NCBI RefSeq assembly: GCF_030145185.1
Contig: NZ_JAQYWB010000010.1
Location: 1 to 64,000, forward strand
DNA length: 64,000 nt
Direction of reading: 5' to 3'
From: Desulfoluna sp.
GTDB lineage: Bacteria > Desulfobacterota > Desulfobacteria > Desulfobacterales > Desulfolunaceae
Part shown: positions 137-8,064 of the stretch, one piece after another
Layout of the letters: each line of letters begins with the position of its first letter
Numbering within the stretch: position 1 is the first letter of the stretch
The notes under the pieces: generated by a model
Told to the model about the DNA's origin: nothing
The model's database searches: none
Seen by the model: only the letters and a program-made list of their open reading frames with translations
Program-made: the position numbers and the translations under genes

Positions 137-1216
137 TTATGCGCCCCCTCCCATGCGACTCTTTCTAAAAATCACGCAAAAGACAGGCCCGCCGATCAGG
201 GCGGTCAACACCCCGATGGGCACTTCATAAGGCAGCACCGCCCGGGTCACGGTGTCGGCAAAAAGCAAAAGAATGGCACCGACTATCAAGGTGGCCGGCA
301 AAAGCTTCCGCGAATCCGGCCCCGTAACAAACCGTACCATATGCGGCACCAGCAGCCCCACAAACCCGATAATTCCGGAGACCGCAACGCAAACAGCCGC
401 CACAAGAGAGGCGGCCACCAAAAGAATAAATACCGTCTTCGAGGTATCCACCCCGAGGCTTCGGGCGCTCTTTTCCCCCAGGGCCAGAAGGTTCAGATCC
501 CGGGCATAAAAAAGAAAGAGAAGAAAACCCGCGGCAGTGACGCCCGAAAGAATGATGGCATCCTGCCAGGTGGCCGCGGCAAAGCTGCCCATGAGCCAGA
601 AGATGATCACGGACACCTGCTCGTCGGCCAGGTACTTCATAAAGCTTAAACCCGCCGAAAGAATGGCCGACACCATAATGCCCGAGAGAATGAGGTTGGA
701 CGAATCAATGCCGCATCGAAGCAGGCGCCCCGAAGGCGAGGCCATGGCAATAACGATAAACAGGGTGAGGATCGCGCCGCCAAAGGCAAAAAGAGGAACG
801 GAAAGAACCGCCTTACCCATACCGAAGAGAAGGGCCACGGCCGCCCCGAAGGCCGCACCTGAAGAGACGCCCAGGGTGTAGGGGTCGGCCAGGGGATTCA
901 GCAAAATATTCTGGTAGACAGCCCCGGCCACGGCAAGCCCGGCTCCGGCCGCTGCCGCCGTTAAAATGCGCGGAAGTCTCACTTCCCACACCATGACGCG
1001 GGCCGTCTCAGCCGCCAGGTTCTGCCCTTCAGCTCCGGTGGCTCCATGCCAGAGGGCGGTGAGCACCTCCCCGAAAGAGAACTCCACGAACCCCATCCGA
1101 GCCGAAAGAAGCACCGCCCCGAAAAGAAGCGCGCACAGACACAGCACCCCGCCCGAGCCTTTAACAAAGGCAAGGGAAGTTTTCGATTTTTTCAGCTGCT
1201 CTGTGACGGTGTGCAT
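137..1216 (-). CDS. FecCD/BtuC-family ABC transporter permease
   Basis: Inner-membrane permease of the FecCD family (iron-siderophore, heme, cobalamin import). The protein has about 359 residues, many hydrophobic segments and the family stretch RLPRILTAAAAGAGLAVAG followed by NPLADPYTLGVSSGAA. The start MHTVTEQL was chosen because GAAGG lies 6 nt upstream. A longer frame reaching 1267 would translate a dispersed repeat (1254-1340). It lies between cbiK upstream and the ATPase downstream. No substrate-binding protein is visible in the window; it may lie beyond the left edge. B12 control is inferred from the operon leader. Confidence 0.88.
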   Translation of the reverse strand: MHTVTEQLKKSKTSLAFVKGSGGVLCLCALLFGAVLLSARMGFVEFSFGEVLTALWHGATGAEGQNLAAETARVMVWEVRLPRILTAAAAGAGLAVAGAVYQNILLNPLADPYTLGVSSGAAFGAAVALLFGMGKAVLSVPLFAFGGAILTLFIVIAMASPSGRLLRCGIDSSNLILSGIMVSAILSAGLSFMKYLADEQVSVIIFWLMGSFAAATWQDAIILSGVTAAGFLLFLFYARDLNLLALGEKSARSLGVDTSKTVFILLVAASLVAAVCVAVSGIIGFVGLLVPHMVRFVTGPDSRKLLPATLIVGAILLLFADTVTRAVLPYEVPIGVLTALIGGPVFCVIFRKSRMGGGA

Positions 1217-1378: not shown

Positions 1379-2353
1379 TTACTTGGCCGTATGAACGGTC
1401 ACGGCATCCACGGCATGCTGAGCGTAAAGCTTCGCCCATGCACGGTTCTCACCCAGGCCTTTCAGCTCACAGGTTACCTTGATGCCCATGTTCTCGATCA
1501 CGGTCTTCCAGGCATCGTCTTCGTCGCCAGCCATGTCGTTCCGGGCATGGTCGCCGGCAACCACCATGAAAGGCTTCATAAAAACCTTTTTGGCATTCAT
1601 GTGTTTCAGGGTGGCGGTCACATCATCAAGGCTGGGGTATCCCTCAACCGTTCCAACGAGGGTGGTCACTTCGGGGTACATCGTGTTCATGGCCTTCTGA
1701 AATTCGATATAGGCGCTGGTGGGAAAAATTTCATTGCCATGGCCCATATATACGAGGACTGCGCCCATTTTTTTGGCTTTTTTAACATCTTTTTTAAGGG
1801 TCTCAGCAGCCTTCTCGATATCTGCATGGTATTCAGGATGAAGGCCTGCCTTGCCAAGGGCGGGACGTCCTATGGTCATGTAAGAGAAAGGCTTCCACTT
1901 GGCGCGAAGGGTGTCGATACCCGCCACGGCGTCCACATACGCAGTAAGATCCAGGAACTCTTCGCCGGAATACACATGGGTGGGTTGAACCACCACACGT
2001 TTTTTTCCTGTTTCCTGAAGGGCCCCGAAAGTGGCCAGTGGCCCTTTCACCTCATACAGCCATGCGGGTACGCTGGGGTGGGCTTTCTTCCAGGCGGTGT
2101 CGTTGGCCCGTTTGTGCCAGATACCGCGGATAATATTGGAGGTAAAGGCATGCTTAATCTCTGCCTTGGGAAACTCTTTTTTCATCGCTTTGTCGATGGT
2201 AAGGATGGCTTTCAGGGCTTCGGGATAGCTTGTGCCAAAGCTGGCGACAACAACGGCATCAACCGCCACTTTTTGGGTGGCTGCGATCGCAGGGGTCATA
2301 CCAAGGAGGGCGGTCATTAAAAGAACCAGAATCAGTGAAGTCGTTTTTCTCAT
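1379..2353 (-). CDS. cbiK: Periplasmic sirohydrochlorin cobaltochelatase, CbiK family
   Basis: Class II chelatase that inserts Co2+ (or Fe2+) into sirohydrochlorin. The 324-residue protein begins MRKTTSLILVLLMTALLGM and has a cleavable signal peptide ending near AIAA, so it is exported, like the periplasmic CbiK described in Desulfovibrio vulgaris. Likely metal ligands are visible: His205 in VYMGHGNE, Glu237 in VEGYP and His269 in VAGDHARND. His126 in QPTHVYSG matches the region of the reported heme-binding His in the D. vulgaris protein. The longer open frame to 2848 translates riboswitch sequence and was rejected. Why a chelatase should be periplasmic is unsettled. Its place in a transporter operon suggests a role in metal-tetrapyrrole uptake (inference). 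Confidence 0.9.
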   Translation of the reverse strand: MRKTTSLILVLLMTALLGMTPAIAATQKVAVDAVVVASFGTSYPEALKAILTIDKAMKKEFPKAEIKHAFTSNIIRGIWHKRANDTAWKKAHPSVPAWLYEVKGPLATFGALQETGKKRVVVQPTHVYSGEEFLDLTAYVDAVAGIDTLRAKWKPFSYMTIGRPALGKAGLHPEYHADIEKAAETLKKDVKKAKKMGAVLVYMGHGNEIFPTSAYIEFQKAMNTMYPEVTTLVGTVEGYPSLDDVTATLKHMNAKKVFMKPFMVVAGDHARNDMAGDEDDAWKTVIENMGIKVTCELKGLGENRAWAKLYAQHAVDAVTVHTAK

Positions 2354-2484
2354 CGTGTGCAAATCTCCATTGTGAGCAGGGTTGTGTTTATCCATTTGGC
2401 ACCCAAAGCTCCTCATAAATCGATCACTTACAAAGGGCCGAACGCCGAATGAACCTTTCACCCGCCCTCCGGTCCGACCATAAC

Positions 2485-2521
2485 CGAAAAAGGGCTGCTC
2501 CCTGTCTGCATCGCCCTTTTC
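2485..2521 (-). terminator. Possible expression-platform hairpin of the proximal B12 riboswitch
   Basis: On the minus strand GAAAAGGGC pairs with GCCCTTTTTC across a loop of about 18 nt, and the T-run is part of the 3' arm. It lies between the proximal cobalamin aptamer and cbiK. It could be the attenuator, but the loop is large and the T-run short. Confidence 0.35.
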
Positions 2522-2589
2522 ATCACACCGACCCCTGTTCTCCGCAGGGAGGCTTCCTTTGTGCGGCCAGGCCACAACAAAAAAAGCAC

Positions 2590-2850
2590 GGTGTCTCATA
2601 CCGGGCAGGTCTTCTGACTTCCGGGCATTCCATACGGCACACCTTCCCGTCCTTATGTCGCTCGCCTGAAAAGGTGTAGCAGCGACGGACAGTGGTTTTT
2701 TTGATGCATTTTTAAAAAAATCATCACTCAGGGCTTGCCTGATTTGACGATTACAAAGGCATCGTTTGCCGTAGAGTTCCCGGTTACAGCGGCGGGACCA
2801 TCCCCGATTTTCACGGGATTCCCTTCCTGCATCCTTGCAAGACCCCATTA
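2590..2850 (-). ncRNA. Cobalamin riboswitch, proximal copy (upstream of cbiK)
   Basis: Minus-strand hallmarks in order: GGGAATCCCGTGAAAATCGG, the B12-box region CCCGCCGCTGTAACCGGG, CCACTG, GGGAAGG, then GGAAGTCAGAAGACCTGCC. This is the conserved architecture of an adenosylcobalamin-type (class I) riboswitch. It precedes cbiK by about 240 nt and should turn the cbiK-transporter operon off when B12 is plentiful. The spacer between CCACTG and the 5' core is longer than in the distal copy. Confidence 0.9.
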
Positions 2851-2923
2851 AGGGGACCCGGTCTCGTACTCATCCGGAAAGCCTTTATCACAAAGAAAAA
2901 AGCTCCCCGACCTAAAACAAAAA

Positions 2924-2962
2924 AATCCCCATACCTGCATTTGGTTTGCAGGTATGGGGATT
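2924..2962 (-). terminator. Strong intrinsic terminator between the two B12 riboswitches
   Basis: A perfect 15-bp stem (AATCCCCATACCTGC with its complement) and a 9-nt loop, followed on the minus strand by TTTTTTTGTTTT. It lies downstream of the distal cobalamin aptamer and upstream of the proximal one, so it probably serves as the distal riboswitch's off-state terminator. Confidence 0.85.
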
Positions 2963-3065
2963 CCGAATTCAATCCTCAAGGCGGTATGCACCCTTTTCCA
3001 CGGCGGTGCCCCCACGTCTATACGACAAAATCCCGTAATCCAGCTGCAGAAACGGCGGGTCACGA

Positions 3066-3254
3066 GGTATCATATATTGCATGGCAGGTCTTCTGACTTC
3101 CGGATCAGCCGTCTTATCGCGCCTTCCCCTCTTTTTTCGAGCTAATCAATCCGCACGGATCAAGAAAGTGGCGTTGTTGCGATAAGCGTCCCCGGTTACA
3201 GCGGCGGGCCCGTCTCCGATTCCCACGGAGTTCCCTATTAAGCATTGTTGCACC
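3066..3254 (-). ncRNA. Cobalamin riboswitch, distal copy
   Basis: A second complete cobalamin aptamer on the minus strand: AGGGAACTCCGTGGGAATCGG, GCCCGCCGCTGTAACCGGGG, GCCACTTTC, GGGGAAGGCGC and CCGGAAGTCAGAAGACCTGCC. No credible gene lies between it and the proximal copy; the 71-codon frame at 2848-3063 has no family features. The two aptamers therefore act in series on cbiK and the transporter. Confidence 0.9.
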
Positions 3255-3405
3255 AAGCATTTGATGTGATCCTAAGTCACACTATTACGGTTGTCAAGCC
3301 AATCTAAACCCGCCCATGCATTCCCCTCCTGATGATCATCTCCTTCGAAATAAAGGGGATAACCATCAGGCTGAGAGCACATCAAACAAGTCATTGAAAA
3401 ATCAG

Positions 3406-4836
3406 CTATTCAGCCATGCCTTCGGCTGTTTTTACCGCTTTCATACCGACCGCTTTATAAACAAACAGACAGAGGAGGACCGCCGCGGTTCCGACCCCGA
3501 TCACCGTGGAGGTACCGATGTCCATGCCAAACCCGATCTTGGCCTGAAGGATAAAGGTCACGACCACAGCGGTCATAAAGGTGGCAGGAAGACAGGCAAT
3601 CCAGTAGTTTTTGGCTTCCCGGGCAAGGAAAACAGCCGCAGACCAGAGCACCAGCGTGGCCAGCGCCTGGTTGGAAAAACCAAAGTATCTCCAGATCATG
3701 CCAAAGTTCTGCGTGGAGATGATAAACCCGAGGACAAAGAGTGGCACAGCGATCATGAGGCGCTTGGCGGTCTGGGACTGGCTCACATTAAACGACTCGG
3801 CCAAAATCAGACGGGTGCTTCGGAAGGCGGTATCCCCGCTGGTGATGGGAAGCACAATAACACCCAGGATGGCAAGGAATCCGCCGACGGGACCCAGCAG
3901 CGCGTTGGACACCTCAGAGACCACAGCCGAAGGTGAACCAGCTGCAATCACGGCGCTTAAGGCTTCGGGAGATTTGTAGAAAGAGAGACCCACGGTGGCC
4001 CAGATCAGACCGATAATCCCTTCGAGAATCATGGCCCCGTAGAACACGGCCCGTCCGTCCTTCTCATTTTTCACGCAACGTGCCATGAGAGGCGACTGAG
4101 TGGAGTGAAAGCCACTGATGGCACCGCAAGAGAGGGTAATAAACAAAAGGGGCCAGATGGGCTTGTTGGCAGGATGCACGCTGGTGGTGACATCGAGATT
4201 GGGGAGAATCTCGTATCCACCGAACATCAGGGCCAACACGGTGGCCACGGTGGTGATCAGCAGAAGTGCGCCCAGAAGCGGATAGATCTTTCCGATCACT
4301 TTATCGATGGGAAGAATGGTGGCCAGAAAATAGTAGCCGAAAATAGCGAAAATAAAAATCTGGGTGTTCACACCGGTCAGGCCGGTCAAAAGCTTGGCAG
4401 GGGCCAGAACGAAGATCACGCCCACCAGCATGAGAAGTACCACGGAAAAGACACGCATGGCCTGACGGGCCGGCATGCCGAGAAAATCGCCCACCACCTC
4501 AGGAATACTGCCACCCCGGTTTCTAATGGAGAGCATCCCGGAAAAATAGTCATGCACGCCACCGGCGAAGATACAGCCAATGACAATCCAGACCAGGGCA
4601 ACGGGACCGTAAAGGGCCCCTAGGATGGGACCGAAGATGGGACCGATACCGGCAATGTCCAAAACCTGGATAAACATCACCTTCCACTTGGGAAGGGGCA
4701 TGTAATCCACCCCATCCTCCATTTCATAGGCCGGGGTCCTTCGGGAAGCATCCGCTCCAAACGTTTTTTCAACAAAGGTACCGTAGGTAAAATACCCAAG
4801 AATCAGTGCCGCAACACACGCAAAAAAAATCAGCAT
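3406..4836 (-). CDS. cstA: CstA-family carbon starvation/pyruvate transporter
   Basis: Multi-helix membrane transporter of the CstA family; E. coli members CstA and BtsT carry pyruvate and have been linked to peptide uptake. It shows the family core DIAGIGPIFGPILGALYGPV and GGVHDYFSGMLSIRNRGGSI. At 476 residues it is the short form, compared with about 700 in E. coli CstA. The start has GGAGG 7 nt upstream. It follows lytS and lytT on the same strand, mirroring the BtsSR-BtsT and LytST-controlled pairs, so the sensor pair probably controls this gene. Substrate is inferred from family, with pyruvate or a related acid most likely. Confidence 0.88.
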   Translation of the reverse strand: MLIFFACVAALILGYFTYGTFVEKTFGADASRRTPAYEMEDGVDYMPLPKWKVMFIQVLDIAGIGPIFGPILGALYGPVALVWIVIGCIFAGGVHDYFSGMLSIRNRGGSIPEVVGDFLGMPARQAMRVFSVVLLMLVGVIFVLAPAKLLTGLTGVNTQIFIFAIFGYYFLATILPIDKVIGKIYPLLGALLLITTVATVLALMFGGYEILPNLDVTTSVHPANKPIWPLLFITLSCGAISGFHSTQSPLMARCVKNEKDGRAVFYGAMILEGIIGLIWATVGLSFYKSPEALSAVIAAGSPSAVVSEVSNALLGPVGGFLAILGVIVLPITSGDTAFRSTRLILAESFNVSQSQTAKRLMIAVPLFVLGFIISTQNFGMIWRYFGFSNQALATLVLWSAAVFLAREAKNYWIACLPATFMTAVVVTFILQAKIGFGMDIGTSTVIGVGTAAVLLCLFVYKAVGMKAVKTAEGMAE

Positions 4837-4988
4837 AATTTATCCTCCATGACAAAACACATTGATCGCCCTTCGGGCAATTCCTCTTTTTGAGAGAGTT
4901 TTATCCGAAAATAACGGCAAGGGGCCACCCTCAATGAAGGGGGTGTCGTTTTTAGGGGATGAAATGCACGTGGAATGGCCTGAAACGG

Positions 4989-5013
4989 CACCGGCACCCA
5001 AAAGGTGCCGATA
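4989..5013. other. Hairpin in the lytS-cstA gap
   Basis: GGCACC pairs with GGTGCC around a short A-rich loop, between the lytS stop (5033) and cstA. It has no clear T-run on either side, so a processing or weak termination site is as likely as a true terminator. Confidence 0.4.
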
Positions 5014-5032
5014 CCTCAGGGAAAAGGGAAGA

Positions 5033-6751
5033 TCAGAGACAGGCGGAGGGATGGCTGCGCGGAATGGAAAAGGAGACCTCCGTCCCCTGGCCCTGGACAC
5101 TTTCAATCATCACCTGACAGGTCGGTCCATAAATCCTGTGAAGCCTGTGGATGGTGTTTCGCACTCCAATCCCTTCGCTGACGGCGGCCAGCTCTTCAGG
5201 ATTGTACAGGCGATGGATCGTCTCTTCCGGCATGCCCACCCCGTCATCTGCCACCCGCACCGTCATCAGTGCCGAGTCACAATGGATAGAGACCGTCACG
5301 GTGCCCCCGGACTCCTTGGGTGTAATCCCGTGTTTAACGGCGTTTTCCACCACCGGCTGAATCACCAGGGCGGGAATGGGCCAGTGCTCACAACCTTCAC
5401 CGACATGCAGCCGGTACTTCACCCGCTCTCCGAAACGTGCCTGTTCGATGGCCAGATACGCCTCCACCTGCTCCAGCTCTTCCTGGACCGTGATATACCC
5501 CTTGCTCTGATCGAGGTTCCGTCTCATGTAATTGGAGAGATCGAGAATCAGCTCCCGGGCACGATCGGGCCGGGTCCGGCAAAAGCTGGCGATGGTGTTC
5601 AGGGAGTTAAAAAGAAAATGGGGGTTAATCTGGGCCTGAAGGCGCCTGATCTCAGCATAGGCAAGCATTCGGGCCTGGATTTGAATATCTTCAAGCTCCA
5701 GCTGGGTGGAGAAGAGCACCGCAAGCCCCCGGGCCGTTTGAAAATGGACCTTATCCAGGGGTTTTGATCGGGTCCCATAAAATTTCAGAGTGCCCACAAT
5801 CGACTCATCCTTTTTTAAAGGAACAATAATCCCATGCTGAAACGGACACCCCGCATGGGGGCAGGCAATCTCCCGCCGCGTGTGGCGGAAAAGGGGCAGC
5901 CCGTCATCCAAAACCATCCGGGTGGCGGCGGTCCGGATGGGCTCCCCCACGATGTGGTGATCAGACCCCGCACCCATATGGGCCAGCACGTGGGTGGTAT
6001 CGGTGATCGCCACCGCCGCCACATCCATCTGTCGAAAAATAATCTCCGCCGTTTTGGAGGCAGACCCCGCACCCAGCCCCGAACGCAGATACCCGACCGT
6101 CACGTTGGCGATCTCCAGAAGCTGTTGCACCTGACGGGATTCCCGCCGTTCGCGCTCCCTGAAAAGACCCTTGATCAGCTCCACAAAGAAAGCGGCCCCC
6201 ACGGAATTGACTAAAATCATGGGAACAGCAATCAACCGCACCAGATCCGCGGCCTCGGCAAAGGGCCTGGCAAACAACAACACCAGCCCCATGTGCATGG
6301 ACTCCCCCGCCACCCCCAGACCAAAGGCCACCTTCCAGTTCATGACCCGCGCCCCATACCAGCCCGCCAGAAGCCCTGCGGCCACCCCCTCAAGGAGGGT
6401 CGCTGTGGCACACGGCGCCGAGGTAAACCCGCCGATATCGATTAAAAAACGATGCCCACCGGCGATCAACCCCGCGCCGAGACCCACCCAGGGGCCACCG
6501 AACAACCCACCGGTCACCACCGCCATGGCCCGCAGGTTTGCAAAGGCGTCATGAACGGGGTCAAACCCATAGTTCCCAAGAATCGCAAAAAGGCCAAAAA
6601 AACCGGTCAAGACCGCCTTTTCCATCCAGGGATGTTGACTGAGAAAGGTCTTACCCGCCGCGCCCATATTCAAAATGAGAAAGGCGGCAGCCACCGTCAG
6701 CCCCAAATGCTCAATGAGGATAATCAAAAGATGTGTGATGGATATGTCCAT
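5033..6751 (-). CDS. lytS: LytS-family sensor histidine kinase
   Basis: 572-residue membrane sensor kinase. Residues 1-200 hold hydrophobic helices of the 5TM LytS type, including NYGFDPVHDAFANLRAMAVV and the glycine-rich GGLFGGPWVGLGAGLIAGG. Residues about 215-355 are a GAF-like domain. The kinase core has the phospho-acceptor His378 in INPHFLFNSLNTI, an N-box VENAVKHG (468-475) and a G-box DDGVGM (502-507). The start MDISITHL was chosen because it opens the first helix and has GGAG upstream; the longer frame runs into a repeat. It pairs with lytT upstream and cstA downstream. By analogy with BtsS it may sense extracellular pyruvate or a related nutrient (inference). Confidence 0.9.
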   Translation of the reverse strand: MDISITHLLIILIEHLGLTVAAAFLILNMGAAGKTFLSQHPWMEKAVLTGFFGLFAILGNYGFDPVHDAFANLRAMAVVTGGLFGGPWVGLGAGLIAGGHRFLIDIGGFTSAPCATATLLEGVAAGLLAGWYGARVMNWKVAFGLGVAGESMHMGLVLLFARPFAEAADLVRLIAVPMILVNSVGAAFFVELIKGLFRERERRESRQVQQLLEIANVTVGYLRSGLGAGSASKTAEIIFRQMDVAAVAITDTTHVLAHMGAGSDHHIVGEPIRTAATRMVLDDGLPLFRHTRREIACPHAGCPFQHGIIVPLKKDESIVGTLKFYGTRSKPLDKVHFQTARGLAVLFSTQLELEDIQIQARMLAYAEIRRLQAQINPHFLFNSLNTIASFCRTRPDRARELILDLSNYMRRNLDQSKGYITVQEELEQVEAYLAIEQARFGERVKYRLHVGEGCEHWPIPALVIQPVVENAVKHGITPKESGGTVTVSIHCDSALMTVRVADDGVGMPEETIHRLYNPEELAAVSEGIGVRNTIHRLHRIYGPTCQVMIESVQGQGTEVSFSIPRSHPSACL

Positions 6752-6803
6752 GCTGCTGGTCACTCCGGTTATTCTGATTCCATTCGTATATGAAAAAAGC
6801 CAG

Positions 6804-7167
6804 AAACTATTCAGCTTGCCTTCGCCAGGCCGTTCGAGGCAAATGACAGAAAAATTCAAATGCCAATACGTCACGTCTTTTCATCACCGCGTAGGGTGCG
6901 GCTCCCGCACCTTCTACCGTAGAGAAGACCATCGGCCTCGCAAGTTAACGATGACCACGAGTCTTATTTCAACATGCGGTGTTTCCGGTTTACGATACGC
7001 CTGACGGTGCGCACGGCGCACCCTACGCATCCACCCGGTACGTCATTGTAAAAATGAGGGCGATACGGATTTTCACACATGAATTCCCGCCTGCGTGGGA
7101 AAGACGAAAAGCGTAGGGTGCTGTCAGACCGGGGTCATAAAGAAAAAATGAATAGCTGAATAGTTAC
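6804..7167. repeat. Family C 365-bp element, copy 1, with terminal inverted repeats
   Basis: About 364 bp ending in AACTATTCAGCTTGCC at one side and AGCTGAATAGTTAC at the other. An inverted copy with scattered substitutions is at 35940-36304. Inside are short palindromes such as GGTGCGCACGGCGCACC. No convincing protein is encoded; the 53-codon shared frame MTEKFKCQYVTSF... is part of the repeat. The element separates lytT from lytS and fills most of the gene-free stretch 6752-7290. Confidence 0.85.
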
Positions 7168-7290
7168 AAAAGCCATGTATCAAAAGTGGCATCACCTTAC
7201 GCCCAACCAGGTCGGGCAGCCACAACAGGATTCCAGGTGGTCGAATTTTAAGGATGCAGTGACATTCAGGCAGGCTGGAATGCAAGGGGG

Positions 7291-8064
7291 TCAAAGGCCC
7301 AGATTCTCCTTGAGGCCTTTCACGCGGTTACGACTCACCACCACCTCGCTTGCGGCGGCGTCATCCATCACCAGGAGGTACTTACCATTGTACCAGCTGG
7401 TGACCTCACGGATATGTTTCAGGTGGACCAGGGTCGCGCGATGGACGCGGTAAAAAGAAAACCCGGCCACCAACTCTTCGAGGCGATCGAGGGTGGTTGC
7501 GCCGTGTGAGAGATAGTCCCCGTCATGGGTAAAGACCCGCACCCGCTTTTCTTCCGCTTTACAAACGATCACCTCATCGGGGTCCAAGAGAAGCAACCGT
7601 CCCTGGCGTTCCACCGACAGCCTCACGACATGGGGTTTTTGAGGGCCCAGGGCCTCAAGAAGCCGTGTCATCTCATCGGTGGTGGACACAGACTCCATTT
7701 GCAGCCGTTCCCGAGCCCGCCCCACGCCCTTTGCCACACGTGCTGCAGAAAAAGGCTTCAAGATGTAATCCACGGCCTGCTCTTCAAACGCCTTCACCGC
7801 ATACTGGTCATACGCCGTACAAAAAATAAACAGAGGAGATCGGTGAAAGTCCACACAGGCCTCAATGACATGAAACCCGGTTTGCCCCGGCATGTTGATA
7901 TCCAAAAAGACAAGATCCGGCTTCAGCTCACCCATCTTTACAATAGCCTCTTTGGCTGAGTTGGCCTCCCCCACCACGGTCACATCCGGCAATTCGGACA
8001 AAAGATAAACCAACTCTTCCACAGCGGGCTGTTCATCGTCGACCACCAAACACCGAATCTCCAT
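7291..8064 (-). CDS. lytT: LytTR-family response regulator
   Basis: 257-residue DNA-binding response regulator. The receiver has the acidic pair VVDDEQ (8-12), the phospho-acceptor Asp55 in LVFLDINMPG and a conserved Lys in YILKPF. The C-terminal half (about 145-250) is a LytTR domain with RVHRATLVHLKHIREV and LVMDDAAASEVVVSRNR. The start has AAGGAG 9 nt upstream. It is the first gene of lytT-lytS-cstA and the likely activator of cstA. The repeat at 6804-7167 lies between it and its kinase. Confidence 0.92.
   Translation of the reverse strand: MEIRCLVVDDEQPAVEELVYLLSELPDVTVVGEANSAKEAIVKMGELKPDLVFLDINMPGQTGFHVIEACVDFHRSPLFIFCTAYDQYAVKAFEEQAVDYILKPFSAARVAKGVGRARERLQMESVSTTDEMTRLLEALGPQKPHVVRLSVERQGRLLLLDPDEVIVCKAEEKRVRVFTHDGDYLSHGATTLDRLEELVAGFSFYRVHRATLVHLKHIREVTSWYNGKYLLVMDDAAASEVVVSRNRVKGLKENLGL

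Follow-up and report, generated by a model that had tools for sequence, protein, structure and literature searches.

Two predicted cobalamin riboswitches in series in one cbiK leader of Desulfoluna, with evidence leaning to a non-terminator output for the second

Tandem cobalamin riboswitches are an already published kind of regulator, known from a survey that covered environmental DNA as well as 44,270 bacterial genomes (Sherlock et al., 2022; PMC9481103). That paper counts 26 AdoCbl doublets, places them under pseudo-cooperative systems, the model for which supposes a terminator after the first switch, and exemplifies bi-mechanism systems by SAM-II/SAM-V and SAM-II doublets; its authors state that mixed mechanisms were not evaluated for all tandems. 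As to the gene involved, a study of Oleidesulfovibrio alaskensis G20 (PMC11124144) places a single cobalamin riboswitch near cbiK-P, with the genome's other one at metE. The Desulfoluna pair described here is a conserved case of the published kind. Like the AdoCbl doublets of PMC9481103, it comprises two complete cobalamin-class riboswitches in series with a terminator after the first, but unlike those pseudo-cooperative doublets its second platform is devoid of a strong terminator. In the pairing of a predicted terminating first switch with a non-terminator second platform it resembles the SAM-II/SAM-V and mixed SAM-II doublets of the same survey, from which it differs in its ligand class, namely cobalamin. 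It shares with O. alaskensis G20 the proximity of a cobalamin riboswitch to a periplasmic-type cobaltochelatase gene; however, that organism has one riboswitch at this place, as does one Desulfoluna genome (G005), as opposed to two in our locus. A search of the open literature, with most subscription papers and the supplements of PMC9481103 lying outside its reach, recovered no description of two-mechanism cobalamin doublets or of tandem cobalamin riboswitches in Desulfoluna.

The locus belongs to a Desulfoluna sp. (family Desulfolunaceae, order Desulfobacterales) and was analyzed within a 64,000-nt stretch of contig NZ_JAQYWB010000010.1, hereafter the window (the genome itself is denoted G000). 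An Rfam covariance scan matched the RF00174 model over its full length (positions 1-189) twice on the minus strand, each match exceeding the curated gathering cut-off of 31.5 bits, and both are accordingly predicted to be cobalamin riboswitches (Table 1). A first-pass annotation, made from the letters of the window, had read a complete tandem pair here and named a search with the Rfam cobalamin model as the check; the two significant matches, and the retention of the gene and element order in five of six Desulfoluna genomes, bear this out, with the adjustment that the pair extends over 2587-3272, slightly wider than the 2590-3254 it had assigned. No other RNA family was recovered in the leader by the Rfam scan, with mir-553, IsrR, and KCNQ1OT1_1 falling far below the cut-off. 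The annotation's view that no credible gene separates the aptamers also stands: among frames of at least 50 aa, the four that overlap the inter-aptamer stretch (51-71 aa) were all rejected for lack of a Pfam match at E up to 1. The window thus presents two complete riboswitches on one strand in one leader with no intervening gene, the features by which Sherlock et al. (2022) delimit same-class tandems.

Table 1. Predicted elements of the tandem leader and its flanking genes, in window coordinates.
Feature	Coordinates	Strand	Details
Promoter TTGACA-17 nt-TAGGAT, sigma-70-type, start of the common leader	3269..3297	-	just 5' of aptamer 1
Cobalamin aptamer 1 (distal)	3066..3272	-	RF00174, 103 bits, E 1.2e-24
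Helix Px, closing the variable insert after aptamer 1	3018..3077 (3077-3069 with 3026-3018)	-	8-9 of 9 pairs in 5/5 species
P13-like hairpin with CCGUGG in the loop	2985..3012	-	2 of 7 pairs with two-sided changes
Putative antiterminator using the 5' arm of the terminator	2953..2980	-	7-9 of 10 pairs in 5/5 species
Intrinsic terminator of riboswitch 1	2914..2964	-	18-pair stem, 7-nt loop (2964-2922), U-tract; -29.1 kcal/mol
Frame	3063-2848	-	71 aa, runs through the terminator into aptamer 2
Frame	2972-2811	-	53 aa, runs through the terminator into aptamer 2
Frame	2941-3096	+	51 aa, overlaps the inter-aptamer stretch
Frame	2954-3145	+	63 aa, overlaps the inter-aptamer stretch
Cobalamin aptamer 2 (proximal)	2587..2876	-	RF00174, 66.2 bits, E 3.9e-14
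P13-like hairpin CCCTG/CAGGG	2533..2549	-	present in single and consensus fold
Hairpin GAAAAGGGC/GCCCTTTTT, antiterminator-like	2487..2521	-	cf. single cobalamin riboswitches; weak terminator at best
Alternative hairpin GCCCTTTTTCGG/CCGGAGGGC	2464..2495	-	no U-tract; by eye and constrained folds
Hairpin over Shine-Dalgarno-like GAGGAG	2409..2437	-	predicted fold
cbiK, cobaltochelatase, signal-peptide-like N-terminus (by eye)	1379..2353	-	PF06180, E 1.7e-70
FecCD-type permease	137..1216	-	PF01032, E 1.8e-90

The Pfam matches of the two downstream genes uphold the operon as first annotated, i.e., cbiK with a FecCD-type importer, and a single leader of this operon, as judged from sequence models, carries the two complete riboswitches in series. 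The promoter in front of aptamer 1 is the sole promoter-like site within 2200-3500, where 0.8 would be expected by chance, and it is conserved with a 10/12 match and 17-nt spacing in all six Desulfoluna genomes (with TACGAT in G005). A promoter between the aptamers was rejected for Desulfoluna by scoring the stretch from terminator to aptamer 2 in four genomes, where the best match reached at most 7/12 (the stretch of G004 was too short as cut). Upstream of the leader lies cstA, which in the window adjoins genes for a 5TM-LytS-type histidine kinase and a LytTR response regulator (3406-8064), which we take to be the arrangement of a system that senses nutrients for a CstA-type transporter.

The same kind of cbiK locus is found in D. 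limicola, D. spongiiphila, D. butyratoxydans, and the metagenome-assembled genome GLD-1. The order cstA-promoter-aptamer 1-terminator-aptamer 2-cbiK is kept in five Desulfoluna genomes (G000, G002, G003, G004, and G006), while the sixth, G005, has cstA (identified by eye), the promoter, a single aptamer, a terminator, and cbiK. The promoter and aptamer 1 align across all six with a mean column identity of 85%, and the G005 aptamer shares 77-78% identity with the five aptamer-1 copies versus 50-63% with the aptamer-2 copies. Within a pair the two aptamers are 50-62% identical, as against 75-94% between species for aptamer-1 copies and 58-94% for aptamer-2 copies; the pair is therefore older than the split of the five species, and a recent duplication was rejected for Desulfoluna on the within-pair values. 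Outside the genus, two tandems, G020a (86% within the pair) and G159 (82%), do look like duplications.

Both aptamers keep the B12 box unchanged in all five species while the periphery drifts. In aptamer 2, where the box reads AGTCAGAAGACCTGCC, the remaining core stretches are nearly invariant across the five (G004 differs at two sites around CCCGCCGCTG), and a peripheral insertion differs in length and sequence from one species to the next. These differing insertions, together with its lower Rfam score (66 versus 103 bits) and the fact that G005 manages with one aptamer, are what might be expected if aptamer 2 were a relic or a duplicate being lost and the first aptamer alone regulated; we hold this to be quite improbable in the face of the invariant B12 box, scores that stay at 61-82 bits across Desulfoluna, and between-species identities that, set against those within the pair, imply long retention.

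The platform downstream of aptamer 1 has the hallmarks of a transcriptional switch that terminates. Its 156 nt 3' of the aptamer fold with z = -4.0 relative to shuffles, and the terminator proposed by the first-pass annotation has the strong stem and U-tract ascribed to it, albeit with 18 rather than 15 pairs. In the alignment of the five species 97.8% of the cells of the terminator stem are paired, with four pairs changed on both sides. Helix Px, in contrast to such two-sided changes, is mostly invariant and altered on one side only; the notion that it competes with the aptamer stem P1 was dropped, as Px can equally be read as an insert-closing helix. The P13-like hairpin keeps five of its seven pairs in G000 and G004, and its CCGUGG loop is presumably a candidate for a kissing-loop role. 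Counting these three helices together (Px, the P13-like hairpin, and the terminator), 95.9% of cells are paired versus 32-58% with the partner strand slid, and two-sided changes occur in 6/34 pairs, four of them in the terminator. Of 500 shuffles, none attained the percentage paired or the covariation score; the count of two-sided pairs was equaled or exceeded by 11 and that of pair types by 78. The antiterminator, which shares the 5' arm of the terminator, would compete with it; a path from the ligand to the antiterminator through P13, sought by eye, did not settle on one precise route.

On the second platform, each of the nine predicted pairs of the GAAAAGGGC/GCCCTTTTT hairpin is retained in four or all five of the species in the consensus fold. 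Comparison with single cobalamin riboswitches is informative as to its role: an element of the form AAGGG-tCAAG-aAACTGGGTGCA-GCCCTT is present in 8 of 12 singles (L034, L050, L053, L054, L057, L059, L061, and L068), the 12 having been chosen by their terminator sequences, and there the GCCCTT strand pairs with a downstream AAGGGC that is followed by U's, forming a strong terminator. In G000, G002, and G006, too, the GCCCTT strand finds a partner further downstream (CCGGAGGGC or similar), with which the alternative hairpin is formed in these three species, but no U-tract follows it; in G003 and G004, where the partner and the alternative hairpin are absent, the first hairpin ends in U6. Downstream of aptamer 2, the strongest terminator-like hairpin reaches -8.9 kcal/mol in G000, -6.8 in G002, -15.7 in G003, and -13.8 in G004, with none in G006, whereas the first terminators of the same five Desulfoluna range from -25.0 to -32.6 kcal/mol. 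Hence, of the two successive B12-gated stops envisaged in the first-pass annotation, the covarying terminator supports the first, but the second is not supported (best -8.9 versus -29.1 kcal/mol in the window).

A plain pseudo-cooperative doublet, in which both switches terminate and the second does so through the weak hairpin ending in GCCC-U5, is nonetheless worth weighing. All five two-aptamer Desulfoluna have a GCCC-type hairpin followed by at least four U's (bulged in G004), such a weak hairpin with U4-6 could stop some transcripts, above all in G003 and G004, and a strong terminator follows the second aptamer in 5 of the 16 tandems from outside the genus (G020a, G051, G053, G086, and G159). 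We nevertheless regard this arrangement as unlikely, given the low or missing hairpin energies in G000, G002, and G006, the use of a like hairpin as antiterminator in single riboswitches, with the strong terminator 3' of it, and the retention of a like hairpin with U4 or no U-run in two further tandems (G007b and G020b). The evidence on the second switch instead leans to a non-terminator output: its platform is modeled as mutually exclusive hairpins lacking a U-tract terminator of the usual strength, which would probably, if tentatively, act after transcription on the access of ribosomes. In forced alternative folds the exposure of the Shine-Dalgarno-like site shifts only mildly, in the expected direction in all three species with the alternative hairpin (from 0.32 to 0.17 in G000, 0.21 to 0.14 in G002, and 0.19 to 0.14 in G006). 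The hidden GAGGAG of G000 is distinct from the site closest to where cbiK begins (2353); its counterpart in G002 and G006 stands ahead of a small ORF, and in the window no such ORF was found in the interval from aptamer 2 to cbiK. This ORF of about 86-88 aa (MKxGxIxYxxG-like) lies directly 3' of aptamer 2 in G006 and G002 (L007 2858-3124), and like ORFs follow aptamer 2 in G007b, G020b, and G171 (loci with like ORFs being L008, L012, L021, and L026); two copies of it gave no Pfam match.

Given that the second platform is without a strong terminator (-8.9 versus -29.1 kcal/mol), a two-mechanism design is likelier than two terminators, and we propose with reasonable confidence, from sequence and predicted folds, that two independent cobalamin OFF-switches stand in series on one transcript, the second of them probably post-transcriptional. 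RNA polymerase would start at the promoter at 3297-3269 and transcribe aptamer 1, whereupon bound cobalamin would disfavor the antiterminator and allow the terminator at 2964-2922 to stop most transcripts. In those that escape, aptamer 2 would provide another cobalamin checkpoint ahead of the synthesis of CbiK and the importer, one that may bear on ribosome access rather than on termination, and the net effect would be a tighter and steeper repression by cobalamin. What we infer in this scheme is ligand binding, the direction of the response, the coupling step, and the second switch's output.

To place the locus in its order, we drew 40 genomes evenly, the window's included, and found 142 aptamers over the cut-off, ten of which form five same-strand pairs, 70-189 nt apart, in four genomes (four pairs in 3 of 39 without the window's genome); these counts are possibly a lower bound, since further pairs may go unnoticed in fragmented assemblies. 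In a set of 39 genomes selected chiefly for their many matches, nine have ten same-strand pairs, 58-309 nt apart. The rarity of tandem cobalamin riboswitches asserted in the first-pass annotation therefore holds overall, going by the 26 doublets in PMC9481103, but less so within the order (4 of 40 genomes). A pair in G001 was rejected as a tandem, with cbiK lying between its aptamers (1.6 kb).

We then compared terminators across a non-random set of 21 tandems, comprising seven from the cbiK-locus comparison, four from the even draw, four among the matches listed, and six from match-rich genomes (the 39 match-rich genomes include the four genomes of the "matches listed" group). With one terminator finder and a threshold of -12 kcal/mol, set after the scores were seen, an intrinsic terminator follows 20/21 first aptamers, 7/21 second aptamers, and 38/39 single aptamers, where the span searched was 230 nt after second aptamers versus 400 nt after singles, and where one second-aptamer match, in G171, was dropped for lying inside a coding region (8 to 7) while the matches of singles were not screened against gene starts. 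The singles are the best-scoring non-tandem match of each of the 39 genomes of the even draw that had matches, except in G009, whose best match is near a contig end; one of them, L042, was cut at 153 nt. Only the first aptamer of G051 fails, its long stem being followed by a poor U-tail. The difference between first and second aptamers (Fisher p 5e-5; 15/16 versus 5/16 without Desulfoluna, p 6e-4) persists with the dropped match restored (8/21, p 2e-4; 6/16 without Desulfoluna, p 2e-3), these tests ignoring kinship among the tandems, in that the five Desulfoluna, G011 with G079a, G029 with G188, and G051 with G101 and G159 are related. The numbers of first, second, and single aptamers passing are 21/10/39 at -8, 20/9/38 at -10, 20/8/38 at -12, 19/7/37 at -15, and 18/4/34 at -18 kcal/mol, such that the contrast between first and second is not bound to the choice of one threshold.

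Six tandems (G007a, G029, G079b, G101, G171, and G188) have a start codon 23-34 nt downstream of aptamer 2, and here the indication of an action on translation is clearer than in the window: in G007a, G079b, G101, and G188 much of the Shine-Dalgarno stretch is paired in the predicted fold, while the fold of G171 shows this less distinctly and that of G029 does not. We give about even weight to the broader proposition that cobalamin doublets of the Desulfobacterales are repeatedly two-mechanism devices, with a terminator switch followed by a platform that has lost its U-tract or sits on the start codon, and that at the window locus an ancestral terminator platform was converted to a non-terminating one. 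A non-terminator second output, if shown, would make the window locus and several of its relatives a two-mechanism variant; the locus also suggests that two-mechanism devices may be frequent among the cobalamin doublets so far listed as pseudo-cooperative. The Desulfoluna leaders form a conserved and comparable set, in which the same gene is preceded, at the same position, by one switch (G005) or by two, so that the contribution of the second switch becomes testable, be it a steeper response, less leak, or control over messages that already exist.

The wider collection shows further variation in layout. A 9/12 promoter-like match precedes aptamer 2 in G053 (309-nt gap) and G054 (284-nt gap; L027/L083), and the switches of these two may be on separate transcripts. 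The second-aptamer match starts inside the terminator of the first riboswitch in G029 and G188 (L023, L084) and at the 3' end of that terminator in G007a and G020b (L011, L021), an overlap that may be confined to the unpaired 5' flank of the model. Finally, divergent (head-to-head) pairs of aptamers separated by less than 1 kb are a recurrent feature of the order, seen in G008 (C41/C54), G023 (C32), G060 (C1), G086 (C42/C141), G135 (C236), G168 (C117), G172 (C170), and G180 (C7), pointing to a possible shared promoter region.
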